In this document: positions 37,201-54,808 of the stretch, in pieces
Numbering within the stretch: the first letter of the stretch is position 1
Layout of the letters: every line of letters begins with the position of its first letter
DNA from: Phreatobacter sp.
GTDB taxonomy: Bacteria > Pseudomonadota > Alphaproteobacteria > Rhizobiales > Phreatobacteraceae
Length of the DNA: 64,000 bases
Direction: 5' to 3'
Assembly (NCBI RefSeq): GCF_027532945.1
Contig: NZ_JAPZTZ010000008.1
Span: 62,001-126,000, forward strand
Program-made: the position numbers and the translations under genes
The notes under the pieces: model-generated
What the model was told of the DNA's origin: nothing
Database searches by the model: none
Seen by the model: the letters and a program-made list of their open reading frames with translations, nothing else

Positions 37201-37217
37201 CGGCAAGTTTTGCCGGG
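37201..37217. promoter_or_regulatory. 17-bp flagellar palindrome, copy 2 (fliL/flgF intergenic)
   Basis: CGGCAAGTTTTGCCGGG, palindromic but for one base pair. It lies about 100 bp upstream of the flgF sigma-54 promoter, a distance typical of an enhancer, and next to the fliL CtrA-like box, where it could repress fliL. Confidence 0.75.
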
Positions 37218-37303
37218 ACGAAAGCGCAGGGATGGCCGTTCGTGCCTAGCGCCCCCTTACCGCTTCCTTGCCTTAAGTGGTTGATTTTCCTTTACCCACC
37301 CGC

Positions 37304-37320
37304 TTGGCACGGCTCCTGCG
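37304..37320 (+). promoter_or_regulatory. sigma-54 promoter of flgF operon
   Basis: TTGGCACGGCTCCTGCG: the -24 TGGCACG is exact and GG and GC are separated by 10 nt. It implies a leader of about 115 nt before the flgF ATG. Confidence 0.85.
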
Positions 37321-37445
37321 ACGACCTTTGCGGATCGCCGGACCCGTTTGGGAGAACGGCCCTGCGGTCCAGCTGGGGAGCACCGGCCCCGGACCGTCTT
37401 GGGAGAGATGGTCCATCAGGGTCGGAACATCAGGGGATCGGTCCG

Positions 37446-38195
37446 ATGGAAAACATTGGTCTGGTCGGACTTTCGCGGCAGGTCGCCCTGCAGCGCGAGC
37501 TCGACGTCATTGCGAACAACCTCGCCAACTTGAACACCACGGGGTTCAAGCAGGACGACGTTGTCTTTGAGGAATACCTGATGCCTGTCGCGCGGGACGA
37601 TACGTTCCAGCGCGGCGCCGACCGGCGCATGTCCTTCGTCTGGGATCGCGCCACCGCGACCAATCTCGGCCAGGGCGGCATCACCCAGACCGGCAATGTG
37701 CTCGACGTCGCCATCAACGGCCGCGGCTATTTCGTCGTCCAGACGCCCGAGGGCGAGCGCTTCACCCGCAACGGCTCCTTCGAGCTGAACGCCCAGAACC
37801 AGCTCGTCACCAAGCAGGGCCAGCTCGTCATGGGCGAAGGCGGCCCCATCGTCTTCGAGGCCCGCGACGTCGGCATCACCATCGGTCGCGACGGCTCGGT
37901 CTCCTCCTCCGGCGGCATCCGCGGCCGCCTGCGCATCGTCGACGGCGACCAGCCGCGCGCCCTGGAGAAGGAAGGCGACAACCTCTTCCGCCTCCGCGAG
38001 GGCCGCCGCGCCGAGACGGTCGCGCTCACCGACGTCCGCCAGGGCGCTCTCGAAAGCTCGAACGTCGCTCCCGTCCTTGCCCTGTCGCGGATGATCGAGG
38101 TCACCCGCGCCTACCAGTCGCTCGCCTCCAACCTCGAGCGGCACGACCAGATGCGCCGGGATGCGATCCGCTCCCTCGGCAACCCCACCTCCTGA
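37446..38195 (+). CDS. flgF: proximal rod protein FlgF
   Basis: A 249-residue rod protein. It starts MENIGLVGLSRQVALQRELDVIANNLANLNTTGFK, has GNVLDVAINGRGYFVVQTPEGERFTRNGSFELN in the centre, and ends SSNVAPVLALSRMIEVTRAYQSLASNLERHDQM. First gene of flgF-flgG-flgA-flgH. I chose the ATG at 37446; the frame is open for 68 codons upstream with no homology. Confidence 0.96.
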   Translation: MENIGLVGLSRQVALQRELDVIANNLANLNTTGFKQDDVVFEEYLMPVARDDTFQRGADRRMSFVWDRATATNLGQGGITQTGNVLDVAINGRGYFVVQTPEGERFTRNGSFELNAQNQLVTKQGQLVMGEGGPIVFEARDVGITIGRDGSVSSSGGIRGRLRIVDGDQPRALEKEGDNLFRLREGRRAETVALTDVRQGALESSNVAPVLALSRMIEVTRAYQSLASNLERHDQMRRDAIRSLGNPTS

Positions 38196-38207
38196 GGAAC
38201 CTGACCC

Positions 38208-38996
38208 ATGCGCGCGCTCCACACCGCCGCCAGCGGCATGAAGGCCCAGGAGCTCACCGTCGAGGTGATCTCCAACAACATCGCGAACATGCGGACCACG
38301 GGCTTCAAGCGCCAGCGGGCCGAGTTCCAGGACATGCTCTACGACCACCAGCGCCGGGCCGGCACGCAGAACTCGCAGCAGGGCAACCTGCTGCCGGTCG
38401 GCATCTCCATCGGCTCGGGCGTCAAGCCCGCCGGCACCTCGCGCATCATGACCCAGGGCAACGTGCTGGCGACGGAGAAGGACTACGACGTCGCCATCCG
38501 CGGCGAGGGCTTCTTCCGCATCCAGCTGCCCGACGGCCGCACCGCCTACACCCGTGACGGTTCCTTCGAGCGCAATGCCGACGGCCAGATCGTCACCGTC
38601 GACGGCTACCAGCTCGACCCCGGCATCACCGTGCCGAACAACGCCACGGCGGTCAGCATCAGCGCCGCCGGCGTCGTCCAGGCGACCCTGCCCGGCCAGA
38701 CCGCCGCCCAGACCATCGGCCAGATCCAGCTCTCGCGCTTCGTCAACAAGGCGGGCCTCGAATCGATCGGCGACAACCTGTTCCTCGAGACCTCCGCCTC
38801 CGGCCAGGCCATCACCACCACGCCGGGCAACGAAGGCATGGGCCAGCTGCTGCAGAAGAACCTCGAACAGTCGAACGTGACGGCGGTGTCGGAAATCTCC
38901 GACCTCATCGCCGCCCAGCGCGCCTACGAGATGAACGCCCGCATCATCTCCGCGGCCGACCAGATGCTGCAGTCCACCTCGCAGTTGATGCGCTGA
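38208..38996 (+). CDS. flgG: distal rod protein FlgG
   Basis: A 262-residue rod protein: MRALHTAASGMKAQELTVEVISNNIANMRTTGFKRQRAEFQDMLY at the start, ATEKDYDVAIRGEGFFRIQLPDGRTAYTRDGSF in the centre and LEQSNVTAVSEISDLIAAQRAYEMNARIISAADQMLQSTSQL at the end. Length matches the family closely. Starts 12 nt after flgF and ends 3 nt before flgA. Confidence 0.97.
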   Translation: MRALHTAASGMKAQELTVEVISNNIANMRTTGFKRQRAEFQDMLYDHQRRAGTQNSQQGNLLPVGISIGSGVKPAGTSRIMTQGNVLATEKDYDVAIRGEGFFRIQLPDGRTAYTRDGSFERNADGQIVTVDGYQLDPGITVPNNATAVSISAAGVVQATLPGQTAAQTIGQIQLSRFVNKAGLESIGDNLFLETSASGQAITTTPGNEGMGQLLQKNLEQSNVTAVSEISDLIAAQRAYEMNARIISAADQMLQSTSQLMR

Positions 38997-38999
38997 GCC

Positions 39000-40007
39000 A
39001 TGCGGACCCTCCGGACCCTCCTCGCAAGCCTCGTTCTCGGTCTCGCCGCGGCGCCCGTGGCGGCCGACGAGCCGCCGCCGCGCCCGGTGCTGCGCCTCGA
39101 GGTCGCCGTATCCGGCGAGGTGGTGCGCCTCGGCGACCTGTTCCAGCATGCCGGCCGCTTCGCCGATGTGCCGGTCTTCCGCTCGCCCGACCCCGGCCAT
39201 ACCGGCCAGATGCCGGCCTGGCGTATCATCGAGGCGGCCCGCCGCGTCGGCCTCGAACCGGAGACAGGTGACCGCAACCGCGAAGTCTCGATCACGCGTG
39301 ACGCCCGCATCCTGCCGCTCGCCGAGATGGAGGAGCGCATCGCCATGGCGCTCGCCTCGTCCATGGGCCTGTCCGATTCGAACCGCATCCAGGTCGCCTT
39401 CGATCGCGGCACCCGCCCCATCGCCGTGGAGAAGGGCGTGTCGGGTAGCCTCGACATCCTGCGCATGGAGCACGACCCCCGCACCGGCCGCTTCGAGGCC
39501 GTGCTCGGCATCGGCGGCTCGCCCCGCACCGACCGCAATGGCGGCTTCCGGGTTCAGGGGACGGCGGTCGAACTGGTCGAGTTCGTCGTGCTCGCCCGCG
39601 CCCTCGGCCGCGGCGAGGTCATCCGCTCCTCCGACCTGGTCATCGACCGCAAGCCGCGCACGCAGGTGCCGGCGCTGACCCTCGACACCGTGGTGAGCGC
39701 GACACAGGCCGTGGGCATGGCGGCGCGCCGCCCCATTGGTCCCGAGCGCCCCTTCCGCATGGCCGACCTGATGAAGCCCGAGCTCGTCGAGCGCAACGGC
39801 AATGTCCTCATCACCATGGAGATGCCTGGCCTGTCGCTGACCATGCGCGGCCGTGCGCTGGAGGCCGGTGCCGAGGGCGACATGATCCAGGTGGAGAACC
39901 TGCAGTCGCGCAAGCGGCTTCAGGCCACCGTCACCGGCCTCAACCGCGTATCCATCACCCCGCCCGTCACCACCACCACCGCCGTCGCCACCGCGAGGAC
40001 GCCGTGA
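39000..40007 (+). CDS. flgA: P-ring assembly chaperone FlgA
   Basis: A 335-residue exported protein: signal peptide MRTLRTLLASLVLGLAAAPVAADE, then a SAF-type region (ALGRGEVIRSSDLVIDRKPR) and the C-terminal GRALEAGAEGDMIQVENLQSRKRLQATVTGLNRVSI that is diagnostic of FlgA. It is longer than enteric FlgA (about 220), with an added N-terminal half. The stop overlaps the flgH start (TGATG). Confidence 0.93.
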   Translation: MRTLRTLLASLVLGLAAAPVAADEPPPRPVLRLEVAVSGEVVRLGDLFQHAGRFADVPVFRSPDPGHTGQMPAWRIIEAARRVGLEPETGDRNREVSITRDARILPLAEMEERIAMALASSMGLSDSNRIQVAFDRGTRPIAVEKGVSGSLDILRMEHDPRTGRFEAVLGIGGSPRTDRNGGFRVQGTAVELVEFVVLARALGRGEVIRSSDLVIDRKPRTQVPALTLDTVVSATQAVGMAARRPIGPERPFRMADLMKPELVERNGNVLITMEMPGLSLTMRGRALEAGAEGDMIQVENLQSRKRLQATVTGLNRVSITPPVTTTTAVATARTP

Positions 40008-40798
40008 TGACCATGCCCGCCATCCGCCGTCCCGCGTCAGGATCCGCCATGTTCGCCCGCAGCCAGCACAGCCTCCGCCCGCTCCTTATCGTCGCCGCCG
40101 GCCTGTCGGTCGCGGCCTGCGGCGCCCCGGACCGGCTGCGCAATGTCGGCCGGGCCCCGCAGCTCTCCGCGGTTGAGAACCCCCAGACCCAGCCCGGTTA
40201 CCGGCCGGTCTCCATGCCCATGCCGGAGCCGCAGCCCATCTCGCACAATCCCAATTCGCTGTGGCGCAACGGCTCGCGCGCCTTCTTCCGCGACCAGCGC
40301 GCCCAGCGCGTCGGCGATATCCTCACCGTCAAGGTGAAGTTCCAGGACCAGGCCAACGTCCAGAACACCACCAACCAGTCGCGCACCGGCTCGCAGACCA
40401 TGGGCACCCCGAGCCTCTTTGGCGCCGAGCGCCTGATCGCCCGCACCGGCGCCGATCCGGCAAGCCTCGTCTCCACCACCGGCACCAATTCCAACGAGGG
40501 CAAGGGCACCGTCACCCGCTCCGAGACGCTCGCCACCAACGTCGCCGCCGTCGTCATGCAGGTGCTGCCCAACGGCAACCTCGTCCTGGAGGGCAAGCAG
40601 GAGGTGCGCGTCAATTTCGAGGTGCGCGAATTGATCGTCGCAGGCGTCGTCCGGCCGGAGGACATCGAGAGCGACAACACCATCGATTCCAACAAGATCG
40701 CCCAGGCCCGCATCGGCTACGGCGGTCGCGGCCAGATCACCGACCAGCAGCAGCCGCGCTACGGCCAGCAGGTCCTCGACGTCCTCCTGCCCTTCTGA
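40007..40798 (+). CDS. flgH: L-ring lipoprotein FlgH
   Basis: A 263-residue outer-membrane ring protein. The signal peptide ends in the lipobox LSVAACGAP. The body has NSLWRNGSRAFFRDQRAQRVGDILTVKVKFQDQANVQNTTNQSR and ends VVRPEDIESDNTIDSNKIAQARIGYGGRGQITDQQQPRYGQQVLDVLLPF. I chose the ATG at 40007 that overlaps the flgA stop; later in-frame ATGs would give a more ordinary signal peptide length. A perfect hairpin terminator follows. Confidence 0.96.
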   Translation: MTMPAIRRPASGSAMFARSQHSLRPLLIVAAGLSVAACGAPDRLRNVGRAPQLSAVENPQTQPGYRPVSMPMPEPQPISHNPNSLWRNGSRAFFRDQRAQRVGDILTVKVKFQDQANVQNTTNQSRTGSQTMGTPSLFGAERLIARTGADPASLVSTTGTNSNEGKGTVTRSETLATNVAAVVMQVLPNGNLVLEGKQEVRVNFEVRELIVAGVVRPEDIESDNTIDSNKIAQARIGYGGRGQITDQQQPRYGQQVLDVLLPF

Positions 40799-40875
40799 CG
40801 CCCTCCCCGCTCCTCCCCGCTCCTCCCCGAGCTCCCAGCCGTCCCCGCTCCCCAGGCGAATACGGCAAGTCCGGC

Positions 40876-40916
40876 GCCGCCCGCGTTCTCCCAACGCGGG
40901 CGGCGTTGGCCGTTAT
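40876..40916 (+). terminator. intrinsic terminator of flgFGAH
   Basis: GCCGCCCGCGTT, CTCCC loop, AACGCGGGCGGC: a perfect 12-bp stem, then GTTGGCCGTTAT. It lies 77 nt after the flgH stop and faces the dksA terminator. Confidence 0.8.
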
Positions 40917-40933
40917 GGGCACAGCCAAAAGAA

Positions 40934-40955
40934 GAGGCCGCCCGGAGGCGGCCTC
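40934..40955 (-). terminator. intrinsic terminator of dksA
   Basis: On the minus strand GAGGCCGCC, a 4-nt loop and GGCGGCCTC form a perfect 9-bp stem followed by TTCTTTTGG. It begins 27 nt after the dksA stop. Confidence 0.85.
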
Positions 40956-40982
40956 ACATGCTGAGCGAAGGTGCCCGCAACG

Positions 40983-41399
40983 TCACTCGTCGCGATAGAC
41001 CCGCTCACGGCGCTCGTGGCGCTCCTGGGCCTCCAGCGACAGGGTCGCGATGGGACGGGCCTCAAGGCGCTTGAGCGAAATCGGGTCACCCGTCTCCTCG
41101 CAGAAACCGTAGGTGCCGTCCTCGATCCGGGCGAGCGCAGCGTCGATCTTGGCGATCAGCTTGCGCTGGCGGTCGCGGGCCCGAAGCTCGATGGCCCGAT
41201 CGGTTTCTGAGGATGCACGGTCAGCGATGTCGGGGTGGTTCTGGTTCTCGTCCTGCAGGTTCTGGAGGGTCTCCTTCGCCTCGCGAAGGATGTCGTCCTT
41301 CCAGGACAGCAGCTTTTTGCGAAAGTACTCGCGCTGCCGCTCGTTCATGAACGGCTCTGAGTCGCTCGGGCGGTAGTCCGCTTCCAACTCCAACGTCAT
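40983..41399 (-). CDS. dksA: RNA polymerase-binding protein DksA (zinc-finger-less form)
   Basis: A 138-residue DksA. The coiled-coil region (FMNERQREYFRKKLLSWKDDILREAKETLQNLQ ... HPDIADRASSETDRAIELRARDRQRKLIAKIDAALARIEDGTYGFC) is standard, including the DxxDxA-like tip (DIADRAS). The C-terminal finger keeps only Cys100; the other three ligand positions are Thr103, Ser121 and Ala124 (CEET...SLEA). Alphaproteobacterial DksA of this type works without zinc. DksA with ppGpp adjusts transcription initiation. It is an interloper among flagellar genes, with its own terminator. Confidence 0.95.
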   Translation of the reverse strand: MTLELEADYRPSDSEPFMNERQREYFRKKLLSWKDDILREAKETLQNLQDENQNHPDIADRASSETDRAIELRARDRQRKLIAKIDAALARIEDGTYGFCEETGDPISLKRLEARPIATLSLEAQERHERRERVYRDE

Positions 41400-41602
41400 G
41401 CAACGAACCCCTCTGATTCACGGTGTTGAGCCCGTGTTTCGGCGCGCTCATAGCATCCGCTCCGATGCCAGACAACCTGAAACCGGGTCATCGGGGCGTC
41501 ACGGAAGGGGACACGGGCGCCACCGAGAGGCAGGAACCGTGCCAGAAGGCAGGAATTGTCTGGATTTCAGACGCTTGCGCCGCGGGAATCGGCTGGCGAC
41601 GA

Positions 41603-42052
41603 TTACCGTTCGCCGCCGCCCTCACGCGCCGCCGCCTCTCGCTTGGCGATCTCCACCTGCGCCCTCAGATCGATCTCGGCGAGGACGTCATCGAGACCCT
41701 GATCACCCGAGCCTTCGAGCGCCGTGGCGGTGACGCTGCGAAGCTTCAACAACACCGAAGGCATGGGCTCACCGGCAAGCAGCGACAGCTTCAGATCGTC
41801 GAGCAGGTCCAGCGACTGGCGGCCGCGCTGCATGGCGCGACGGCGCTTCTCGCGCCGGTCCTCGGGCTGCATCCCCTGGACCGCGAGCAGCGTCTCGAGG
41901 CCCGCCGCAGCGACGGTGGGGCGGGCGGCGGCGGTCGAGGGCGTCTCAGCCTTGCCGCCGGGCAGCTCGAAAGCCGAGCGCGGCCGATCGGCCCGTTGCG
42001 TGGCCGGGCCCTGGGCGACCGCTCCGACGGTCGGCGGCGTAATGATCCGCAT
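41603..42052 (-). CDS. fliX: flagellar assembly regulator FliX
   Basis: A 149-residue cytoplasmic protein starting MRIITPPTVGAVAQ, the FliX N-terminal signature, with a helical C-terminal half (QSLDLLDDLKLSLLAGEPMPSVLLKLRSVTATALEGSGDQGLDDVLAEIDLRAQVEIAKREAA). In Caulobacter FliX senses early basal-body assembly and gates the activator FlbD. It is divergent from flgI, as in Caulobacter, and has a CtrA box upstream. Its presence predicts an flbD gene elsewhere. The 203 nt between it and dksA hold nothing I recognise. Confidence 0.9.
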   Translation of the reverse strand: MRIITPPTVGAVAQGPATQRADRPRSAFELPGGKAETPSTAAARPTVAAAGLETLLAVQGMQPEDRREKRRRAMQRGRQSLDLLDDLKLSLLAGEPMPSVLLKLRSVTATALEGSGDQGLDDVLAEIDLRAQVEIAKREAAAREGGGER

Positions 42053-42127
42053 GGTCCTTCTCCGGGACGGGCGCTTCAGGAAGGCGCAACACGTCTTTCT
42101 ATGAGGTTAAGAAGACCCCCTGCGTGG

Positions 42128-42142
42128 TTAAGGGGCCGTTAA
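42128..42142 (-). promoter_or_regulatory. CtrA box upstream of fliX (TTAA-N7-TTAA)
   Basis: TTAAGGGGCCGTTAA on plus, i.e. TTAA-CGGCCCC-TTAACC on minus, an exact CtrA-type site about 75 nt before the fliX ATG. It lies 5 bp from the 17-bp palindrome that serves flgI on the other side. Confidence 0.7.
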
Positions 42143-42144
42143 TG

Positions 42145-42163
42145 CCCGGCAAGACTTGCCGGG
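42145..42163. promoter_or_regulatory. 17-bp flagellar palindrome, copy 3 (fliX/flgI intergenic)
   Basis: CCCGGCAAGACTTGCCGGG, here a perfect 19-bp palindrome (17-bp core 42147-42163). It is about 100 bp upstream of the flgI sigma-54 promoter and next to the fliX CtrA box. Confidence 0.8.
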
Positions 42164-42245
42164 TGACCCCCATCAAGGCCGGGAGGATGACCCCGCCTTT
42201 CGGCAATCACCATAACAAATCAACAACTTGGGGAATCGCATGGTC

Positions 42246-42262
42246 TTGGCATGGCCTGTGCG
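42246..42262 (+). promoter_or_regulatory. sigma-54 promoter of flgI
   Basis: TTGGCATGGCCTGTGCG: -24 TGGCAT, GG-N10-GC spacing, -12 TGTGC. The flgI ATG at 42295 is about 33 nt downstream of the GC, so the leader is short. Confidence 0.8.
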
Positions 42263-42294
42263 AGGCTTTCAGCGAACCCACGATCGGAACACCC

Positions 42295-43395
42295 ATGCTC
42301 CGCCGTCTCGTCGTCCTCCTGAGCCTGTTCGCCCTCGCCGCCCCGGCGGGAGCCAACACCTCGCGCATCAAGGATCTCGTCGATGTCGAGGGCATCCGCG
42401 AGAACCAGCTCATCGGCTACGGCCTCGTCGTCGGCCTCAACGGCACGGGCGACACGCTGAACAACTCGCCCTTCACCCGCCAGTCCATCCAGTCGATGAT
42501 GGAGCGCCTCGGCGTCAACACCCGCGGCATGAACCTGCGCACGGCCAACGTCGCCGCGGTCATGGTCACCGCCAACCTGCCGCCCTTCTCCACCCAGGGC
42601 ACGCGCATCGACATCAAGGTCTCGGCCATGGGCGATGCCCGCTCGCTGCAGGGCGGCGAGTTGCTGGTGACACCGCTGATCGGCGCCGACGGCGAGGTCT
42701 ATGCGGTCGGCCAGGGCGCCGTCGCCATTGCCGGCTTCCAGGCCCAGGGCGCCGCTGCCAGCATCACCCGCGGCGTACCCACCGTCGGCCGCGTCTCCAA
42801 TGGCGGCATTGTCGAGCGCGAGGTGAACTTCGCCATCAACCGCCTCGCCTCGGTGAAGCTCGCCCTGCGCAACCCGGACCTCACCACGGCGCGCCGTATT
42901 GCCGCCGCGATCAATGATTTCATTGGCGCCCCGACCGCCGAGCCGACCGATCCGGCGACGGTCCACCTCAAGGTGCCGCAGCGCTTCGAGGGCAACATCG
43001 TCGCCCTGCTCACCGAGATCGAGCAGTTGCGCGTCCAGCCCGACCAGGTCGCAAAGGTCGTCATCGACGAGGCCTCCGGCATCATCGTCATGGGCAAGGA
43101 CGTGCGCGTCTCCACGGTCGCGGTGGCGCAGGGCAACCTCACCGTCACCATCTCCGAGCGGCCGCAGGTGAGCCAGCCGAACCCGCTGTCGCAGGGCCAG
43201 ACGGTCGTCACGCCCCGCACCCAGATCCAGGCGACGGAAGAGGGCAAGCGCCTCGCCCTCGTCCGCGAGGGCGTGTCGTTGCAGGAGCTCGTCGATGGGC
43301 TCAACGCGCTCGGCATCGGCCCGCGCGACATGATCTCCATCCTCCAGGCCATCAAGGCGGCCGGCGCCCTCCAGGCCGAGATCGAGGTGCTCTGA
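42295..43395 (+). CDS. flgI: P-ring protein FlgI
   Basis: A 366-residue periplasmic ring protein. Signal peptide MLRRLVVLLSLFALAAPAGA, then NTSRIKDLVDVEGIRENQLIGYGLVVGLNGTGDTLNNSPFTRQSIQSMMERLGVN, the hallmark of FlgI, and the end RDMISILQAIKAAGALQAEIEVL. I rejected the open frame extending 57 codons upstream because the sigma-54 promoter lies inside it. The stop overlaps the next start (TGATG). Confidence 0.97.
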   Translation: MLRRLVVLLSLFALAAPAGANTSRIKDLVDVEGIRENQLIGYGLVVGLNGTGDTLNNSPFTRQSIQSMMERLGVNTRGMNLRTANVAAVMVTANLPPFSTQGTRIDIKVSAMGDARSLQGGELLVTPLIGADGEVYAVGQGAVAIAGFQAQGAAASITRGVPTVGRVSNGGIVEREVNFAINRLASVKLALRNPDLTTARRIAAAINDFIGAPTAEPTDPATVHLKVPQRFEGNIVALLTEIEQLRVQPDQVAKVVIDEASGIIVMGKDVRVSTVAVAQGNLTVTISERPQVSQPNPLSQGQTVVTPRTQIQATEEGKRLALVREGVSLQELVDGLNALGIGPRDMISILQAIKAAGALQAEIEVL

Positions 43396-43724
43396 TGCGC
43401 AGCCAGACGCCCGAACGCGCCGCCGTCAACGCCTATACCCCGGCCGCTGCCAAGGTCGCCGGGTCCAGGGAGAACCGCGCCTGGAACCAGGCCCAGAATT
43501 TCGAGCAGGTGTTCCTCAACACCATGTTCTCCCAAATGTTCACCGGCCTCGGCAACGACTCGCCCCTCGGCGGCAAGCAGAGCGAGGCCTGGCGCGGCAT
43601 GCTGGTCGACGAATACGCCAAATCCGTCTCCTCGCAGGGCGGTATCGGGCTCGCCAACCACATCTACCGTGAACTAATCGGCGCGCAGGAAGCCGCGCCG
43701 CGCCGCCTTCCAGCAAGGAGCTGA
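43395..43724 (+). CDS. FlgJ-like rod-binding protein (no muramidase domain)
   Basis: A 109-residue protein corresponding to the N-terminal rod-binding domain of FlgJ: NRAWNQAQNFEQVFLNTMFSQMFTGLGNDSPLGGKQSEAWRGMLVDEYAKSVSSQGGIGLANHIYRELI. The C-terminal peptidoglycan hydrolase found in enteric FlgJ is missing, as is common in alphaproteobacteria (also called CheL). Coupled to flgI by a TGATG overlap. Confidence 0.9.
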   Translation: MRSQTPERAAVNAYTPAAAKVAGSRENRAWNQAQNFEQVFLNTMFSQMFTGLGNDSPLGGKQSEAWRGMLVDEYAKSVSSQGGIGLANHIYRELIGAQEAAPRRLPARS

Positions 43725-43727
43725 CCC

Positions 43728-44210
43728 ATGCAGCAGCAGCCCCGTCCCGCCGCCCTGCCCGCGCCGATCACCACGGCCCAGGAAGCCCTCGCCCTCGTCA
43801 CCGGCCTGCGCGCCACCATGGCCGAGCTGACCGGCGTGCTGCAGGAGGAGACCGCGCTGGTCCGCACCGCCAAGGTGAAGGCCGCCCAGCCGCTGGAGGC
43901 CCGCAAAGCGGAGTTGTCGCGCCGCTATCTCGCCGATCTCGGCCGCATGAAGCTCCACCGCGAGGTGGTTCGCGCCCATGCGGCCCGCGGCCTTGCGGCG
44001 CTCGAGGCGGATCACGCCGCGATGCAGGAGGCCCTGGAGGTCAATCTCGCCGTGCTCGCGACGGCCCATGCGGTGGCCGAGGGCATCATCCGCCACGTCT
44101 CCGCGACGGTGGAGGCCAAGCGCTCGCCGACCCTCTACGGCGCCAATGGCCGCACGGCCGCCCCGCCGCCGCGCGCCGCGGCCCCGGTGGCCATCGTACG
44201 CTCGCTGTAA
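43728..44210 (+). CDS. FlgN-like flagellar chaperone
   Basis: A 160-residue mostly helical protein with LVTGLRATMAELTGVLQEETALVRTAKVKAAQPLEARKAELSRRYLADLGRM, which fits the FlgN family (export chaperones for FlgK/FlgL). The C terminus is Ala/Pro-rich. Begins 3 nt after the rod-binding gene. The call rests on helical pattern and context, since FlgN proteins are poorly conserved. Confidence 0.7.
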   Translation: MQQQPRPAALPAPITTAQEALALVTGLRATMAELTGVLQEETALVRTAKVKAAQPLEARKAELSRRYLADLGRMKLHREVVRAHAARGLAALEADHAAMQEALEVNLAVLATAHAVAEGIIRHVSATVEAKRSPTLYGANGRTAAPPPRAAAPVAIVRSL

Positions 44211-44267
44211 AGGCGGTGACATTCCGCGGTATTCGACAGAATTCGCGGCCGCAACATTTACCATAAG

Positions 44268-44286
44268 TCCTAACGCGGGTTTAGGA
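44268..44286. promoter_or_regulatory. inverted repeat TCCTAA-N7-TTAGGA upstream of flaG-like gene
   Basis: TCCTAA, 7 nt and TTAGGA form a perfect 6-bp inverted repeat, about 70 nt before the next ATG, in a locally AT-rich stretch. Its N7 spacing recalls CtrA boxes but the halves are inverted and off consensus. Possible operator; no other copy was seen. Confidence 0.35.
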
Positions 44287-44357
44287 TTTCCGCGTCATGA
44301 TCCGGCACTTGGGAGAAGAGGGATCACGAGGTCCTTCCCCCACAGGGAGTACCGGTC

Positions 44358-44795: not shown

Positions 44796-44820
44796 CCGCC
44801 GCTGCCCGGCTGACCACCCG

Positions 44821-47324: not shown

Positions 47325-47341
47325 CGGCAAATCCTGCCGGT
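47325..47341. promoter_or_regulatory. 17-bp flagellar palindrome, copy 4 (fumC/flagellin intergenic)
   Basis: CGGCAAATCCTGCCGGT keeps the CGGCA-N5-TGCCGG core with two mismatched pairs inside. It is 160 bp upstream of the flagellin ATG. I found no good GG-N10-GC promoter downstream of it. The gene-free stretch 47189-47501 also contains the CtrA-like half-match and the leader hairpin. Confidence 0.6.
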
Positions 47342-47394: not shown

Positions 47395-47413
47395 GACGAC
47401 GAAAAATGTCGTC
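47395..47413 (+). promoter_or_regulatory. stem-loop in the flagellin leader or promoter region
   Basis: GACGAC, GAAAAAT loop, GTCGTC: a perfect 6-bp stem in AT-rich DNA about 90 nt before the flagellin ATG. If transcribed, it could be a target for FlbT, which binds flagellin leader RNA in Caulobacter; that is inference. Confidence 0.4.
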
Positions 47414-47423
47414 GAGACGAAAA

Positions 47424-47438
47424 TTAACCATTGGTTAG
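47424..47438 (+). promoter_or_regulatory. imperfect CtrA-like site upstream of flagellin
   Basis: TTAACCATTGGTTAG: TTAA-N7-TTAG, one base off TTAA-N7-TTAA, followed by another TTAAC three bases on. The surroundings are the most AT-rich part of the intergenic region. Confidence 0.4.
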
Positions 47439-47501
47439 GGTTAACGGGGCAGGGTGCGTCAAAGGCCCGTGAGAATCGTCGGGCCCGGCCGAGGACCACT
47501 C

Positions 47502-48725
47502 ATGAGCGACATCGTCCTTTCGAAAGGCATTCGCGGCAATCTTCTCTCGCTGATGGGCACCGCTGACCTGCGCGATCGCACGCAGTTCCGGTTGTCGACG
47601 GGCAAGAAGGTCAACACTGCGCTGGACAATCCCGGCAACTTCTTCTCCGCGCAGATGCTCAACTCGCGCGCGACCGACATCACCAATCTGCTGGATGGCA
47701 TCGGCACCGCGATCAAGACGCTCGAGGCCGCCGATAACGGCATTCGCTCCATCGTCCGCGTGGTGGAGAACGCGCAGGCCCTCGCTCGTCAGGCCCGGGG
47801 TTCGGCGGCGAGCACCGCCCGGCTCGGTGGCGTATTGCCGACTGTGAACGGCGAGCTTGGCTCGCTGACGATGCAGACCAATCTCGCTGACCTCGGCTTT
47901 GCCGTCGGCGAGACCATCACCATCAACACCGGCACCAACCGGCAGACCGTTCTGACGATCGCCACCGGCATGACGGTCGGCAATCTCGTCAACGCCATCA
48001 ACGACAACACCGAGGCGACCACCGCCACGGGTACAGGCGTGACCATTGGCTCCACAGCAGGCGCTGATGCGCGCGCCCTTCTCTCGCCCGACGGCCGCCT
48101 GGTCATCCAGGCGATCGGAACCCAGCCGCTGACGATCTCCTCGTCCAACGCCGGCACGGCCCTCACCAATATGGGCTTCGCCGTCCCCGACCGCGCCAAG
48201 CTGGCCGGCGAGATCAACGTCACCCGCTCGAACATCGCCACCCAGTTCTCTGAGCTGCGCCGCCAGATCGACCAGCTCGCCAAGGATTCCGGCTTCAATG
48301 GCGTCAACCTGCTGAACGCCGACACGCTGCAAGCGATGTTCAACGAGCGTCAGACCTCCTCGCTGACCATCTCAGCCGTGCGTTTCTCGGTGAGCGAGGA
48401 CCTCGCCATCAACGACCAGAAGAACCGCTTCCAGACGGACGCGGACATCGACGACGCGCTGGGCGAGCTGTCGCAGGCGATGTCGATGCTGCGCTCCCAG
48501 TCGAGCGCCTTCGGCTCGAACCTGGCACTCGTCCAGATCCGCCAGAAGTTCACGCAGGAAATGGCGAACACGCTGAAGACCGGCGCTGACAACCTCGTCC
48601 TCGCCGACATGAACGAGGAAGGCGCCAACATGCTGGCGCTGCAGACCCGCCAGCAGCTCTCGACCCAGGCTCTCTCGCTCGCCAACCAGGCCGACCAGAG
48701 CGTCCTGAGGCTCTTCGGCGGCTGA
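47502..48725 (+). CDS. flagellin with DUF1522 insertion
   Basis: A 407-residue filament subunit. N-terminal D0/D1: MSDIVLSKGIRGNLLSLMGTADLRDRTQFRLSTGKKVNTALDNPGNFFSAQMLNSRATDITNLLDGIGTAIKTLEAADNGI. The exposed centre (GETITINTGTNRQTVLTIATGMTVGNLVNAINDN...LVIQAIGTQPLTISSSNAGTAL) resembles DUF1522, found in Bradyrhizobium-type flagellins. The C-terminal D1/D0 is NLVLADMNEEGANMLALQTRQQLSTQALSLANQADQSVLRLFGG. GAGGA lies 7 nt before the ATG. It is the only flagellin gene in the window and is followed by flbT and flaF. Confidence 0.95.
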   Translation: MSDIVLSKGIRGNLLSLMGTADLRDRTQFRLSTGKKVNTALDNPGNFFSAQMLNSRATDITNLLDGIGTAIKTLEAADNGIRSIVRVVENAQALARQARGSAASTARLGGVLPTVNGELGSLTMQTNLADLGFAVGETITINTGTNRQTVLTIATGMTVGNLVNAINDNTEATTATGTGVTIGSTAGADARALLSPDGRLVIQAIGTQPLTISSSNAGTALTNMGFAVPDRAKLAGEINVTRSNIATQFSELRRQIDQLAKDSGFNGVNLLNADTLQAMFNERQTSSLTISAVRFSVSEDLAINDQKNRFQTDADIDDALGELSQAMSMLRSQSSAFGSNLALVQIRQKFTQEMANTLKTGADNLVLADMNEEGANMLALQTRQQLSTQALSLANQADQSVLRLFGG

Positions 48726-48807
48726 TGCACGCGGCGGCGGGCTTTCTCGCCGTTTGATCCGCTTGTGCTAGCATTCCGCCGATCGACGAATCGTGCGGAG
48801 GCAGTCC

Positions 48808-49221
48808 ATGGCGCTCAAGGTCGAACTGAAGCCCGGCGAGAAGTTCATCCTCGGCGACAGCGTGATCGTCAACGACGACCAGCGCACGCGGCTCACCATC
48901 GAGGGCGAGGCGCCCATCCTTCGCGAGAAGGACGTGATGACCATTGAGGCCGCCGACACCCCTTGCAAGAAGATCTACCTGATCGTGCAGCTGATGTACC
49001 TGTCGCGCGATCCGGTCAGCCACCACAAGATGTATTTCGACCTCGTCAACGACGTGGTGAAGGCGGCTCCCTCGACACTGCGATTCATCGACGACATCAA
49101 CAATCACATATTAACCGGTGCGCTCTACAAAGCACTGAAGGCCACAAAAGGCCTCATCGAGTACGAAGGGACTCTGCTGGAAAATGCATCACGGGGCAGC
49201 AGCGTACGCGTCGACGGCTAA
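48808..49221 (+). CDS. flbT: flagellin synthesis repressor FlbT
   Basis: A 137-residue protein with KVELKPGEKFILGDSVIVNDDQRTRLTIEGEAPILREKDVMT and KKIYLIVQLMYL, the FlbT signatures. FlbT binds the flagellin mRNA leader and represses its translation until the hook is complete. GGAGG lies before the ATG at 48808. Its 3' end overlaps flaF by 38 nt. Confidence 0.94.
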   Translation: MALKVELKPGEKFILGDSVIVNDDQRTRLTIEGEAPILREKDVMTIEAADTPCKKIYLIVQLMYLSRDPVSHHKMYFDLVNDVVKAAPSTLRFIDDINNHILTGALYKALKATKGLIEYEGTLLENASRGSSVRVDG

Positions 49222-49555
49222 GGTCACCTCCACCGCGAGTCCCCGCGACCTGGAGGCGAGCCTTCTTCTCAAAGCCGCCGCCAAGCTTCAGGCAGTGAAG
49301 GACAATTGGGAGCAGGCCCGCGGCGATCTCAGTCCCGCCCTCGCCTACAACCGCAAGCTCTGGACGATCCTGTCCACCTCCGCGACCAAGCCCGAAAATC
49401 CGCTACCGCTGCCGATCAAGAACAATATCGCCAATCTCGGCTTGTTCATCTTCCAGCGCACCATCGACATCGAGATCGAGCCGGCCCCCGAGAAGCTGAG
49501 CATTCTCGTCTCGATCAACTCGAACATCGCCGCGGGCCTCGCCGGCCGCGGCTGA
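49184..49555 (+). CDS. flaF: flagellin synthesis activator FlaF
   Basis: A 123-residue FlaF: AAAYASTAKVTSTASPRDLEASLLLKAAAKLQAVKDNW, ALAYNRKLWTILSTSATKPENPLPLPIKNNIANLGLFIFQRTIDI. It promotes flagellin translation or secretion, opposing FlbT. The 38-nt overlap with flbT suggests translational coupling. Last gene of fliC-flbT-flaF. Confidence 0.94.
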   Translation: MHHGAAAYASTAKVTSTASPRDLEASLLLKAAAKLQAVKDNWEQARGDLSPALAYNRKLWTILSTSATKPENPLPLPIKNNIANLGLFIFQRTIDIEIEPAPEKLSILVSINSNIAAGLAGRG

Positions 49556-49677
49556 TCACGGGCCGTTCGCGGCCTTTCCCGAGGCCGCTGCCGCCACTCC
49601 AAGTCGCGCCACCATGAGGCCGATCCACGGCCTCGCGTGGGACGCAGGCATCGCCCGATCGCTCCCCCAAACGGACA

Positions 49678-49702
49678 AAGGCGCGGACTATGCCCGCGCC
49701 TT
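49678..49702. terminator. bidirectional terminator between flaF and flgL
   Basis: AAGGCGCGG, a 7-nt loop and CCGCGCCTT form a perfect 9-bp stem between the convergent genes flaF (+) and flgL (-). The tail is short on both sides. Confidence 0.7.
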
Positions 49703-49744
49703 CCGTCCTCGCCGACCACGTTGGCGAAAATTGCGTGGCCTAAA

Positions 49745-51322
49745 TTACATGTAGTTGACGATGGTTAGCTTGGAGAGCATCGAGCTCGTCTGATAGCTGG
49801 CCTGAAGGTTCGTCTGCAGCGCCAGCATCTGCACGCCGACCTCGTTCGGGTCAGCCCGCTCGATATCGGTCACGAGGCCGCCCAGCATCGACTTTCTGTC
49901 GGCATGGCGCGTCTTGGCGCTGCCGGCCGCCGTGGTCGCCGCGGCGATGTCGATCTGGATCGACTGCACGGTCTGCGTGCCCTTTTCCATGCTGAGCCCC
50001 GAGACCACGCGCGGCGTCAGGGCCTGGAAGCGACCGAGGCCGTTGGTGTCAGTCTCGCTGAACTTAAGGCTGCTCGCCACCGCCATGTACTGGACCGCGG
50101 TGCGCAGGGCCTCCTCGTCGGCGCGCACGCCGTAGAAGACCGACTGGGCGTTGTCGATCTCGGCCGAGGCGGTCGCCCGCGGATTGGAGGAGACGAGGTC
50201 GCCCTGGTACCAGCGCACGGTGCGCGCCTCGGCGTTCTGCGGCGTGTCATAGGCCACGGAGTCCGCCATCGTGCCGGAAACCCCTGCCACCAGCCGCTTG
50301 GCGATGCCCTGCTCCACTGGCGGCGGGCCGGCGCTGGCGGTCGCCTCGCCCTTGAAGAAGTCCTCGCCCGCCTTGACCGCCGAGGCGGCGGCAAGCGGCC
50401 CGCCGATCAGCTTGCCGAGCTGGGTGCCGAGCGTGGCGCGCAAATTGTTCAGCGTGTCGGTCGAATTGGCGCCAATCTTGAATTCGTTGGCCGCCACGAC
50501 CGGCGCATCGGCCGAAACGGCGGTGAGCGTCATCTGCTCGATGCTGCCGTCGGGCAGCGTGAACTTCAGCATCATCGCCTGGCCAACCGAGGCATTGCCC
50601 GCGCCCGCGGCGAGCGACAGCGAGGCCGGCGGGCCCGCCGTATGGGTCGCCGTAATGCCGTCGACGGCGCCGGTGGGAGGCGCGACCTTGAGGCCCAAGG
50701 CGTGGACACCGTCCTCGGTGAGCGTCACGGGCTGCGTGCCCTGCGCCGACAGGGTCACGCGGCCGGTGGCGGCGGGATTGGCCTCCGGAGAGGCGCTGGC
50801 GACGCCGAGATCGGCCTGCATGCGCTGCAGCAGGACGGTCTTGAAGCCGTCCTTGGAATTATCACCGTTGAGGAAGATCGTCGGATCGACAACCGGCGGC
50901 GTCGCCGACTTGCGGCCGCCGAAGACATAGCGCGTGCCGTCATTGGCATTCAGCATGGACACGATGGAGGACAGGCTCTGGCCTGCCGCCACCTGGCCGA
51001 TCGTCTGGCCGGACGACAGCTTGTACTCGTTCGGCTGCATCGACGTCTTGGTCGACGAGATCGTTTTCGAGATGCCGGTGAGCGACGTGTCGATGATCGA
51101 GATGCGCGTCGAGACGAGCGAGATACTCTGCTGCCAGGCGTCGATCTGGCTCATCGAGGCGCGGAAGGCGAGCGAGAAGCCGCGCTCGGCGCCGAGGCCG
51201 CCATAGGTCTCGGCCTTCTTGCCAGTGCCGAGCTGGCGCTGGAGGTCCGAGAGCTGGTCCTTCATGCGCAGGAAGTCCGCCGCGCTCAGTCCCGAGATGA
51301 TACCGGAAGTTCGAATGGCCAT
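49745..51322 (-). CDS. flgL: hook-filament junction protein FlgL
   Basis: A 525-residue flagellin-like protein, long for FlgL. The start is MAIRTSGIISGLSAADFLRMKDQLSDLQRQLGTGKKAETYGGLGAERGFSLAFRASMSQIDAW, and the C terminus is MLGGLVTDIERADPNEVGVQMLALQTNLQASYQTSSMLSKLTIVNYM. The middle contains the FGGRKSATPPV segment. It links hook to filament with FlgK. GAGG precedes the ATG at 51322, 8 nt after flgK. Confidence 0.88.
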   Translation of the reverse strand: MAIRTSGIISGLSAADFLRMKDQLSDLQRQLGTGKKAETYGGLGAERGFSLAFRASMSQIDAWQQSISLVSTRISIIDTSLTGISKTISSTKTSMQPNEYKLSSGQTIGQVAAGQSLSSIVSMLNANDGTRYVFGGRKSATPPVVDPTIFLNGDNSKDGFKTVLLQRMQADLGVASASPEANPAATGRVTLSAQGTQPVTLTEDGVHALGLKVAPPTGAVDGITATHTAGPPASLSLAAGAGNASVGQAMMLKFTLPDGSIEQMTLTAVSADAPVVAANEFKIGANSTDTLNNLRATLGTQLGKLIGGPLAAASAVKAGEDFFKGEATASAGPPPVEQGIAKRLVAGVSGTMADSVAYDTPQNAEARTVRWYQGDLVSSNPRATASAEIDNAQSVFYGVRADEEALRTAVQYMAVASSLKFSETDTNGLGRFQALTPRVVSGLSMEKGTQTVQSIQIDIAAATTAAGSAKTRHADRKSMLGGLVTDIERADPNEVGVQMLALQTNLQASYQTSSMLSKLTIVNYM

Positions 51323-51330
51323 GACGCGCC

Positions 51331-53223
51331 TCACATCTTCTGCAGCATGTCCAGCATCTCGCGGACCGAGCTCATGATGCGCGCATTGGCGCCGTAAGCG
51401 GTCTGCAGCTGGATCAGCAGGGTCATTTCCTCGTCGATGTTCACCGCCGCGACGCTATCGAAGCGCGCCTGCAGCTGCGTCACCACGGCATCCTGGCCTT
51501 TGGCCACCTGCTTGGCGCTGGCCGCGTCATTGGTCTGGTTGACGATCACCGAGCGGGCATAGGAGAGCACCGAGCCTCGGAACGGATTGCCGTCAGTGCC
51601 AAGACCTCCGGCCGGTTTGAAGTAGCGGCCCGTATCGGCGAGCGCCTTCACGAAGTAGGACGGGCGCGTCCCGTCGGATTCCAGCGTCGTGGCGCTGAGC
51701 TTCACCAGCGCGCTCGGATCAGCCTTCAGCGCGGCATTCACGTCGATACGCACGGCAAGCCCGACGAACTGCGATCCCGAACCGGTGTAGCGGTCCGAGT
51801 AGAGCCCTCCGACGGCTGTCGAATCGATGAAGAAGGGCAGCGACGTGCCGCCATCGGTCAGCGTGCGCGCCGTGACATTGGCCGCCGCGGCATTGACCGC
51901 GGCGCCGCCCGTGACGGTCGGATCGGCGAGGACGCGCAGGTTCGACCCCGACACGGCCACCGAGAAGGAACCAGCGGGCGCGCCGACGCTCGTCGCCCAG
52001 GTGTCGATCGCCGCCTGCATCTGCATCGCGTGCCCCGCGGCCGAGGTACCGGTCAGGCGGAACACCTGATCGTTCGGGTCGGCCGTCATCGTGTCGGCCA
52101 TGGGCACGGTGGTGTCGTCGACACGCTTGAACGTGAGCTTCTTGGTGACGCCGTTGGCGGTGAGCTCAAGCGTCACCGTGTCGCCGTCGGACAGGCCCGG
52201 ACCGAGAACGGTGTCGTAGCCCTTTGTGGGACCAGGCCCGGCCACCGTAGCCGGGGTGCTGGTCGAGCCATTGCCGAGCGCTTGGGCAAGGCTGGCGGCG
52301 ATCTGGTCGAGCTGCGACTGCGCCGCCGGCATGGCCTTGTCGCGCAGGTCGATGAGGGCGGCGATCTTGCCTGACGTGAACACCCCGGCCGCGATGAGAT
52401 CCATCTGGCCCGACGGCGTATCGGCCGTGATCGTGCCGACCGTCCGCTTGGTCGGGTCGGTATCGTAGATATTGGACGGACCGATGAGGTCGCGGCCATC
52501 GAAGGACAGTGTCGGCTTGGTGGTGGACAGCAGCACGAAGCCGGCGCCGCCATAGAGCTGAACCGCGCCGCTATCCTGATAGACGGTGCGGACATTGGTG
52601 TATTCGGCGATCTCGGAGACCAGGGCGTCGCGCTGGTCGAGCAGGCCGACGCGGCTCTCGTCGGTGAACGAGACTTCGAGCCGGCCGTTCACCTTCGACA
52701 GGTCGGTGAGCAGCGTGTTGAGGCGCGTGGTGGCGTCGGCAAGGCCCTTCTCGGCGTCGAGGCGCATGTCCTGCACCGAGGTCGACAGGCTGCGGAGGCT
52801 CTGCGCCACCACCGTCGCCGAATTGATGACGCCGGCCCGCGCCGTGGCGCTCTCCGGCGAGGTCAGCAGCGTCTGGAACGACGAGGAGAAGGTGTTCAGC
52901 ACCGTGTCGAGGGCGCGGGCCGAACCAGGCGCGCCCATCATCTGGTCGAGCCGGTCGAGGAACTGCGAGCGGGTGGAGGCATAGCCGGCATTCGACTTTT
53001 CGCCGACCAGCTGGCGCTGCACGAAGGCGTCATATTCTCGCCGGATCGAACCGACCTTGACGCCGGCGATCTGGTCGCCGGCGAGCGCGTCGACCGGGTC
53101 GATCAGCTTGCGCGTGTAGCTGGGGTTCCCCGCATTGGCGATGTTGGCGCTGGTCAGCGCCGTCGCCTGCGCGTTGAAGCGCAGGCCGGACAGGGAATTG
53201 GCGAGGGCACTGGTGAGGGTCAT
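51331..53223 (-). CDS. flgK: hook-associated protein FlgK
   Basis: A 630-residue hook-filament junction protein. N terminus MTLTSALANSLSGLRFNAQATALTSANIANAGNPSYTRKLI; the helical region RLNTLLTDLSKVNGRLEVSFTDESRVGLLDQRDALVSEIAEYTNV is diagnostic. C terminus VTQLQARFDSVAAVNIDEEMTLLIQLQTAYGANARIMSSVREMLDMLQKM. AAGGAG precedes the ATG. First gene of flgK-flgL. Confidence 0.95.
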   Translation of the reverse strand: MTLTSALANSLSGLRFNAQATALTSANIANAGNPSYTRKLIDPVDALAGDQIAGVKVGSIRREYDAFVQRQLVGEKSNAGYASTRSQFLDRLDQMMGAPGSARALDTVLNTFSSSFQTLLTSPESATARAGVINSATVVAQSLRSLSTSVQDMRLDAEKGLADATTRLNTLLTDLSKVNGRLEVSFTDESRVGLLDQRDALVSEIAEYTNVRTVYQDSGAVQLYGGAGFVLLSTTKPTLSFDGRDLIGPSNIYDTDPTKRTVGTITADTPSGQMDLIAAGVFTSGKIAALIDLRDKAMPAAQSQLDQIAASLAQALGNGSTSTPATVAGPGPTKGYDTVLGPGLSDGDTVTLELTANGVTKKLTFKRVDDTTVPMADTMTADPNDQVFRLTGTSAAGHAMQMQAAIDTWATSVGAPAGSFSVAVSGSNLRVLADPTVTGGAAVNAAAANVTARTLTDGGTSLPFFIDSTAVGGLYSDRYTGSGSQFVGLAVRIDVNAALKADPSALVKLSATTLESDGTRPSYFVKALADTGRYFKPAGGLGTDGNPFRGSVLSYARSVIVNQTNDAASAKQVAKGQDAVVTQLQARFDSVAAVNIDEEMTLLIQLQTAYGANARIMSSVREMLDMLQKM

Positions 53224-53258
53224 CGCAGGTCACTCCTTGACGCGCGCCATGCTCCGCC

Positions 53259-54611
53259 TCAGCGGATCATGTTGATCGTTTCCTGGAGCATCGAGTTCGA
53301 GGTGGTCACGATGCGGGTGTTGGCCGCGTAGGCCTGCTGGGTGATGATCAGCTTGGTGAACTCCTCGGAGATGTCGACGTTCGAGCCCTCAAGGCTCTGC
53401 GACACGATCCGCCCGGAGGCGCCGAGGATGGCCGGGCCCGAGCCCGACGTCTCCTGGAAGGCGCCGCCATCGAGGCGCTTCAGCATGTTGTCGCCGTTGA
53501 AGCTGGCGAGCGGGATGGAGAACAGGTCCACCGACTGGCCGTTGGAATAGTTGCCGCGCACGCGGCCGGTAACGGTGATGGTGACGTTCGTCAGCTCGCC
53601 GACGGCGTAGCCGTTCTGGCCAATGTCGGTCACCTGAACCGTGCCGTCGGCGCGGGCATATTGGGACAGGCCGTTGGTGCCGATATCGAGCTCGACATTG
53701 CCGACATTGGTGCCGTTGACCGTCAGGTTGGGGATGGTCGGCGACGAGGTCGGCGAGGTCAGCTGGCCGGTGCTGGAGAAGGTGAAGTCGCCACCGATAC
53801 GCGTCCACGTCTCGGCGCCTGAGGTCGAGCTCGACTGATAATAGGCGCTCCAGGTGTCGGAGACGGCAGGCGGGCCGGCGCTGGCATTGGCGGTCTTGGC
53901 CCAGCGCACCTGCACGTTCACCTGTTTGCCGAGCGAATCGTAGGCGATGATCGAGCCGCCGGAAACCGATGTGGCGACGAAATTGGCGGCATTGGTAGAG
54001 TTGATGGTGGCCGAGCCGATCAGCGAGGCCTGCATCAGTTCGCTGCCGGCGGTGGAGCTCGCATTCGTCGTCTTCGGCGTCGTGGGCAAGCTGGCGCGGT
54101 ACTTGATCACGTCGGTGGCGCGGGCCGGCACGACGTCGTTGGTGATCTGGATCGGCACCGTCGAGGAGCCGAGGGGATTGCCGGTTTTGCGGTCGAGCGG
54201 CAGGCCGCGCAGGTAATAGCCGGCACCATTGACCATGTAGCCGTTGGCGTCGACGGTGAAGTCGCCGCGCCTAGTATAGGCGTTGGTCGTGGCGAAGGTC
54301 GGCTTGCCGTCGACCATGCCCGAGGGCTGCTGCACCACGAAATAGCCGTCGCCGTTGATGGCGAGGTTGGTGGTGATCGAGGTCGCGGAGATCTGGCCCT
54401 GGATCGTGTTGGTGGCACGCGAATAACCAGTGACCGAGCCGGAGAGCTCACGCTTGGGGCCCGAATCCGGGATCAGGTCGACGAAGGCCGTGTCGATGCG
54501 CTTGAAAGCGGTTGTCTGCGAGTTGGCGATATTGCCGGAAATGTTTTCCAGGGCGTAGGCCTGCGCCGAGAGGCCGCTGACCGCCGTGGTCATTGCACCG
54601 AAGATACCCAT
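53259..54611 (-). CDS. flgE: flagellar hook protein FlgE
   Basis: A 450-residue hook subunit: MGIFGAMTTAVSGLSAQAYALENISGNIANSQTTAFKRIDTAFVDLI at the start, ATSITTNLAINGDGYFVVQQPSGMVDG in the next block and SLEGSNVDISEEFTKLIITQQAYAANTRIVTTSNSMLQETINMIR at the end. I chose the start at 54611; the open frame extends 94 codons upstream across the promoter. It has its own sigma-54 promoter and palindrome, separate from flgK. flgD and fliK, its usual neighbours, are not here. Confidence 0.96.
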   Translation of the reverse strand: MGIFGAMTTAVSGLSAQAYALENISGNIANSQTTAFKRIDTAFVDLIPDSGPKRELSGSVTGYSRATNTIQGQISATSITTNLAINGDGYFVVQQPSGMVDGKPTFATTNAYTRRGDFTVDANGYMVNGAGYYLRGLPLDRKTGNPLGSSTVPIQITNDVVPARATDVIKYRASLPTTPKTTNASSTAGSELMQASLIGSATINSTNAANFVATSVSGGSIIAYDSLGKQVNVQVRWAKTANASAGPPAVSDTWSAYYQSSSTSGAETWTRIGGDFTFSSTGQLTSPTSSPTIPNLTVNGTNVGNVELDIGTNGLSQYARADGTVQVTDIGQNGYAVGELTNVTITVTGRVRGNYSNGQSVDLFSIPLASFNGDNMLKRLDGGAFQETSGSGPAILGASGRIVSQSLEGSNVDISEEFTKLIITQQAYAANTRIVTTSNSMLQETINMIR

Positions 54612-54679
54612 TGTTACTCCCCTCGCCGCTGCTGCACGGCCGGCAGGCGACGCAACCCGTCGCGCTTCGCCAAAAGGCT

Positions 54680-54697
54680 TTGCAGCGCCCGTGCCAA
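54680..54697 (-). promoter_or_regulatory. sigma-54 promoter of flgE
   Basis: On the minus strand TTGGCACGGGCGCTGCAA: exact TGGCACG and TTGC-like -12 with GG-N10-GC spacing, about 70 nt before the flgE ATG. Best match to consensus in the window. Confidence 0.88.
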
Positions 54698-54791
54698 GAC
54701 CGCGGACAGCGAGGAGGTCTTGTTTTTCAAGGATTTGGATGGTGAACGCCGCGTTAATGCGCGGGCGCCCGGCAGTTTCGCCTGTGCCGAT

Positions 54792-54808
54792 CGGCATATT
54801 CTGCCGGG
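54792..54808. promoter_or_regulatory. 17-bp flagellar palindrome, copy 5 (upstream of flgE)
   Basis: CGGCATATTCTGCCGGG, one mismatched pair. It is about 110 bp upstream (on minus) of the flgE sigma-54 promoter, the same arrangement as flgF and flgI. Confidence 0.75.

Follow-up and report, generated by a model that had tools for sequence, protein, structure and literature searches.

FlbD-type palindromes stand at helically stepped distances upstream of sigma-54 promoters at late flagellar operons of Phreatobacter sp. and its relatives

Description

What turns on the late rod, ring and hook genes of Phreatobacter sp., and why do three of its flagellar operons carry a palindrome about 100 bp upstream of a sigma-54 promoter? 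Here, we describe these paired sites in a 64-kb stretch of DNA (the window; bases 62001-126000 of contig C22, NZ_JAPZTZ010000008.1, in a genome of 4.13 Mb) and in relatives of this genome. The palindromes are very probably FlbD enhancers, from which short loops bent by integration host factor (IHF) would reach the sigma-54 promoters, co-activating the flgFGAH, flgI, flgEK and fliK-flgD operons, and across relatives the distance between enhancer and promoter is quantised by about one helical turn.

Control by FlbD, ftr sites, IHF and sigma-54 is already well established in Caulobacter. As worded in the available excerpts of PMC3930126 and PMC3096577, FlbD binds there to ftr sites, activating middle and late genes and repressing early ones, e.g. 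fliF, is itself controlled by FliX, and acts in a hierarchy whose class III and IV genes need sigma-54 and IHF; excerpts of two further papers make sigma-54 and FlbD a requirement for the rod, ring and hook genes there (PMC7064773, PMC6180460). For Bradyrhizobium, control of flagella by FlbD and FliX is the subject, by its title, of a work cited in PMC9977809.

Paired sites in the window

Five exact CGGCA-N5-TGCCG palindromes lie within the window, three of them upstream of sigma-54-type promoters, at flgF, flgI and flgE (Table 1). This palindrome appears to agree with the Caulobacter ftr consensus; sigma-54 sites were scored against TTGGCACN6TGCA. At sequence level, -24/-12 promoters (GG-N10-GC; TGGC-N9-GC) are found at the late flagellar operons. 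A preliminary description of the window had placed a palindrome upstream of a sigma-54 promoter at flgF, flgI and flgE, and it was correct, with exact palindromes and promoters of zero to two mismatches. Centre to centre, the coordinates give distances of about 104.5 bp for flgF, 100.5 bp for flgI and 110.5 bp for flgE (105, 101 and 111 bp in the convention of the script); the earlier values of 103, 100 and 111 bp are right within their own way of measuring.

Pairs in the genome, genus and order

Genome-wide, the palindrome by itself shows no enrichment (44 places, and 43 for the reversed control), and sigma-54-like sites with at most three mismatches number 117 in the window against 145 in shuffles, fewer than chance would give. 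Both counts favour a chance co-occurrence of GC-rich palindromes and sigma-54-like sites, although five of the 44 palindromes fall in the window, where about 0.7 are expected. The pair is another matter, since it exceeds chance where the palindrome or the sigma-54 site singly does not. A palindrome followed after 75-104 nt by TGGCN9GC occurs at six places in the whole genome, against two for the reversed pattern. Four of the six precede flagellar genes (flgF, flgI, flgE and fliK), and at the other two, on contigs C5 and C26, no flagellar reading frame was recognised by eye. A stricter pattern with a TGC end leaves exactly those four, against none in the control. The fourth pair, with a spacing of about 98.5 bp, lies on contig C14 ahead of fliK and then flgD (Pfam Flg_hook and FlgD).

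The pairs are conserved. Twelve genomes of the same genus, namely this one and 11 others of its family sample, all carry the pair pattern, with three to six strict matches each and 53 in total, compared to five for the reversed control, although some few matches seem not to be flagellar. An order-wide set comprised 31 genomes of 30 families (30 FliX-positive genomes and G006) with 30 loci for each of flgF, flgE and flgI, of which 89 were usable. Here the pair is present at 64 of the 89 loci, and shuffles of those 64 stretches hold it in 3 of 2560 cases; the shuffles used for pair, IHF and CtrA-box counts preserve base composition only, not dinucleotides. No counts were taken from an order-wide pattern search, which in GC-rich genomes does not separate genuine from chance matches (the reversed control was often high). 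These comparative counts speak strongly against chance, the probability of which we put as practically negligible.

Which activator binds the palindromes

Six proteins of the genome have a strong sigma-54 activation domain, and two further matches are weak. Only one of the six passes the cut-off of the FlbD equivalog NF050807 of NCBIfam (810 bits; cut-off 750), while the other five reach 257-328 bits on that model. The GAFTGA motif is visible in the FlbD sequence, its receiver domain falls under the Pfam cut-off (27.4 vs 30.2), and the flbD gene adjoins fliN and fliG, both named by Pfam. FliX is also encoded in the genome, within the window and divergent from flgI.

By their own cut-offs, one of the remaining five is NtrC (716 vs 559 bits) and one NtrX (750 vs 600), and the last three reach none of the listed regulator cut-offs, so NtrC, NtrX or one of the three unnamed proteins could bind the palindromes instead. 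Such a binder appears improbable, since the pairs stand at late flagellar genes and FlbD is the reported binder of flagellar ftr sites in Caulobacter (excerpts of PMC3930126). Genomes lacking FliX speak the same way: among 45 searched, 17 have flgI, and at these 17 loci no pair and no palindrome was found, with sigma-54-like sites at five, although stretches without a palindrome and so seldom with a sigma-54-like site may in many cases not be promoters.

FlbD thus stays the best candidate for the single bacterial enhancer-binding protein (bEBP) that the preliminary description had proposed for the late rod, ring and hook genes: it alone passes its equivalog cut-off, FliX is divergent from flgI, and the pair pattern is present in 12 of 12 genus genomes. 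The three operons named at the time comprise flgF, flgG, flgA, flgH, flgI, flgE and flgK; to be added are the fliK-flgD operon, outside the window, and two palindromes within the window that are without a sigma-54 site.

Spacing across relatives

Strict constancy of the spacing was considered and rejected: it ranges from about 99 to 111 bp inside this genome and jumps by about one turn between relatives. Among 80 named flgI loci, which are related to one another and include many of Bosea, the pair is present at 69, with 12 spacings of 98-101 bp, 56 of 109-115 bp, one of 123 bp and none of 102-108 bp. Order-wide, distances lie mostly near 91, 101, 111 and 122 bp. Tested as a comb with a period of 10.5 bp, the order-wide distances yield R=0.56 (n=61, with G006 dropped), which none of 20,000 smoothed-bootstrap nulls (5 bp) equalled; these nulls and the Rayleigh values assume independent loci, and the families are separate yet related. 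Averaging per genome gives R=0.74 (28 genomes of 28 families) and exact palindromes only R=0.47 (n=33). By gene, flgF reaches R=0.63 (1 of 20,000 nulls as large) and flgE R=0.72 (0 of 20,000). With the gene start as end point, distances at the order-wide loci have no period (R=0.12 and 0.09).

Spacing thus varies over homologues by about 10.5-11 bp while that of the controls does not, more weakly class-wide, and it tends to change by whole turns. The sequence in between differs among relatives while the distance stays or jumps by about one turn. The 'constant' spacing described earlier holds only in part, as the three distances differ by up to 10 bp and relatives step by about one helical turn. 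Nor do bEBPs need a fixed distance as such, as had been proposed; what seems to be kept is the helix face, with an IHF site in between.

Two observations stand beside these. Three metagenome-assembled genomes (MAGs) titled Rhodoplanes piscinae (L084, L086 and L090) have flgI spacings of 111, 98 and 101 bp, a shift of roughly one turn among genomes sharing a title. A second, weaker palindrome (at most two mismatches) follows the first at 28 of 64 promoters, 8-45 bp downstream and usually at 14-23 or about 30 bp, compared to 4 of 64 where it precedes the first; a tandem of this kind fits bEBP enhancers with two sites.

IHF-like sites within the pairs

IHF-like sites were scored against WATCAANNNNTTR, which we take to be the IHF consensus. 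With at most one mismatch, they are not in excess in the 64 kb (five, and 4.6 in shuffles); their placement is what is notable, as three of the five are enclosed by the palindrome-promoter pairs, one each at flgF, flgI and flgE. Order-wide, 47 of the 64 pairs have such a match between the two sites; base shuffles have one in 7.8% of cases, and control stretches of equal length taken upstream in 5 of 63. Measured to the promoter centre, the match lies at 30-33 bp in 32 of the 47 pairs, at 39-43 bp in seven and elsewhere in eight, and its orientation differs by gene: flgE matches are minus in 15 of 19 and flgF matches in 15 of 18, and all 10 at flgI are plus. Distances are periodic both from palindrome to IHF site (R=0.55) and from IHF site to promoter (R=0.64; n=54), the latter mostly because of one cluster.

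Weighing the FlbD reading

Several points weigh against FlbD enhancers at helically stepped distances, among them three already given: the unenriched palindrome, the other five strong activators and the doubtful promoter status of the FliX-lacking stretches. flgI alone has a weaker comb in the order (R=0.51; 148 of 20,000 nulls as large). Class-wide flgI loci of other families, in which FliX was not tested, have the pair at 23 of 40, and their comb taken alone is weak (R=0.43, n=23, 296 of 20,000 nulls, best period 11.3 bp). At this stringency no pair is found at 25 of the 89 order-wide and 17 of the 40 class-wide loci, and the best period differs among pair sets, from 10.7 to 12.0. The flgF spacing in the window (105) is about 3 bp away from the mean flgF phase, and flgI spacings of 154 and 156 and flgF spacings of 67 and 76 may be wrong pairings.

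By analogy with Caulobacter for FlbD binding, IHF bending, sigma-54 dependence and gating by FliX, the sites would work as follows. FlbD, an NtrC-type sigma-54 activator of polar-flagellate alphaproteobacteria, would bind the ftr-like palindromes, and IHF, bound in between, would fold it back for its AAA+ domain to meet sigma-54 RNA polymerase at TGGC-N9-GC. FlbD would open the promoter once FliX signals completion of the early flagellar structure, and the flgFGAH, flgI, flgEK and fliK-flgD operons would be turned on together. A short loop with its bend at a fixed position would need both sites on about the same helix face, and its spacing would for this reason evolve by whole turns, as in the series of about 91, 101, 111 and 122 bp. 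Bound FlbD would also lie at the CtrA-like box of a divergent early gene and may turn that gene down.

CtrA-like boxes and divergent early genes

CtrA boxes were scored as TTAA-N7-TTAA with at most one mismatch. At fliX/flgI, the early-gene side of the palindrome carries a box in 60 of 67 named loci (exact in 10), with its centre 12-13 bp away from the palindrome edge, and the shuffle mean for any box is 0.3; the seven loci without one are all of Methylobacterium and have a less good look-alike in that position. A box on the sigma-54 side is present in 8 of the 67 loci. In the order, flgI has it at 11-14 bp in 12 of 19 loci and at 23 bp in one, and flgF in 13 of 22 loci, ten of these at 22-24 bp, about one turn further than flgI. 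Among flgE relatives, it is upstream of the palindrome in 1 of 23 and downstream in 4 of 23. In the window, flgE has a CtrA-like box between palindrome and promoter.

Two of the window palindromes have a CtrA box and, nearby, no sigma-54 site. One is in the divergent flgB/fliO region (fliO scores just under its Pfam cut-off, and flgB is called by sequence and place), where palindrome and CtrA box are kept in all five Phreatobacter genomes examined and TTAACC flanks the palindrome on both sides. By analogy with ftr4 of Caulobacter fliF, it may be a repressing site. The other is upstream of one flagellin gene, where all five genomes have a CtrA-like box 99-100 bp downstream of the palindrome although the intervening sequence differs; other flagellin copies in two of the five are without the palindrome. 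At the flagellin gene that has the palindrome, FlbD may even act from that distance to a CtrA box, in a promoter without a sigma-54 site.

These two sites, along with the box next to the palindrome at 60 of 67 fliX/flgI loci, would suit a reading in which the palindromes mainly serve the divergent early genes (fliL, fliX), as repressor sites or spacers, and their spacing is a by-product of conserved intergenic length. We regard that as very unlikely. The same pair occurs at flgE and fliK despite neighbours on the far side that are not flagellar (an AAA ATPase and a sugar-kinase-like protein, respectively), the spacing is periodic when distances to the gene start are not, and the intervening sequence differs when the distance is kept or shifted by about one turn.

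Repression may instead accompany activation by FlbD, as one FlbD site may also act on the divergent early gene, lowering it as the late operon rises. More tentatively, and with somewhat less than even confidence, CtrA box, FlbD site, IHF site and sigma-54 promoter may form one phased unit at fliX/flgI and fliL/flgF, by which the late operon would come on while CtrA is blocked or remodelled at the early gene. At fliX, FlbD would then shut off its own partner, making this a single-site switch for the class II to class III hand-over. Such a single-site model, in which early flagellar genes go off as late ones come on, is testable.

Comparison with known systems

The arrangement is that of class III control in Caulobacter crescentus, in that FlbD and FliX are encoded and an ftr-like palindrome, an IHF-like site and a sigma-54 promoter stand at rod, ring and hook operons. 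Phreatobacter belongs to the Hyphomicrobiales, not the Caulobacterales, and the Caulobacter-type FlbD hierarchy is now given at base-pair detail in that order. The four enhancers here are all upstream; in Caulobacter, going by the titles of cited papers, ftr and IHF elements can also be located downstream or 3' of the promoter. Repression of fliF through ftr4 (excerpts of PMC3930126) is alike in having an FlbD-type site in an early-gene promoter region, which at flgB/fliO comes with a CtrA box and without a sigma-54 promoter; the target genes differ.

Sigma-54 enhancers bound by LuxO at the qrr genes of Vibrio have enhancer-promoter lengths of about 80-120 bp that cluster about 11 bp apart across the genus (excerpts of PMC4740811). 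As there, the loop lengths described here cluster about one turn apart, which indicates that enhancers are edited in whole helical turns by evolution. Activator and genes are different, the comb here extends over many families, an IHF-like site lies in the loop, and a CtrA-like box abuts the enhancer at two operons. A literature search found neither helical phasing of FlbD sites nor a fixed CtrA-FlbD spacing, which is weak evidence of novelty because the classical Caulobacter papers were thinly covered.

Features and neighbouring genes

Table 1. Sites and genes in the window, in window positions; mismatches refer to CGGCA-N5-TGCCG (palindromes), TTGGCACN6TGCA (sigma-54), WATCAANNNNTTR (IHF) and TTAAN7TTAA (CtrA).
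Feature	Position	Strand	Remarks
CtrA box, flgB/fliO	28431-28445		exact
FlbD-type palindrome, flgB/fliO divergent region	28504-28518	.	exact
fliL, divergent early gene	36609-37127	-	Pfam FliL
CtrA-box-like site TTAACGGCCCGTTTA, fliL side of flgF palindrome	37172-37186	.	1 mismatch; centre 22 bp from palindrome edge
FlbD-type (ftr-like) palindrome CGGCAAGTTTTGCCG, upstream of flgF	37201-37215	.	exact; region shared with divergent fliL
IHF consensus site inside the flgF pair	37274-37286	-	0 mismatches
Sigma-54 promoter of flgF TTGGCACGGCTCCTGCG	37304-37320	+	1 mismatch
flgF, flgG, flgA, flgH	37446-38195, 38208-38996, 39000-40007, 40004-40798	+	Pfam domains; flgF and flgG separated by position
fliX, divergent from flgI	41603-42052	-	Pfam FliX, 5.9e-31 (match 41606-42052)
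CtrA box TTAAGGGGCCGTTAA, fliX side of flgI palindrome	42128-42142	.	exact; centre 12 bp from palindrome edge
FlbD-type palindrome CGGCAAGACTTGCCG, upstream of flgI	42147-42161	.	exact; with flanks perfect over 19 bp (42145-42163)
IHF consensus site inside the flgI pair	42218-42230	+	0 mismatches
Sigma-54 promoter of flgI TTGGCATGGCCTGTGCG	42246-42262	+	2 mismatches
flgI (P-ring)	42295-43395	+	Pfam
Rod-binding protein gene, directly after flgI	43395-43724		Pfam
FlbD-type palindrome, upstream of flagellin	47325-47339	.	flagellin ATG at 47502
CtrA-like box, flagellin	47424-47438		1 mismatch
flgK, flgE	51331-53223, 53259-54611	-	
Sigma-54 promoter of flgE TTGGCACGGGCGCTGCA	54681-54697	-	0 mismatches
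IHF-like site between palindrome and flgE promoter	54725-54737	+	1 mismatch
FlbD-type palindrome CGGCAGAATATGCCG, upstream of flgE	54792-54806	-	exact

Ahead of a dksA-like gene (40983-41399) stands a further sigma-54-like site, CTGGCACGGTTCCTGCC (41529-41545, minus strand, 2 mismatches), and near this site there is no palindrome, either exact or with one mismatch. Next after flgK, the gene at about 49745-51319 has no Pfam match and is presumably flgL by its looks. Seven MAGs have a flgI with 89-96% identity to that of the window.

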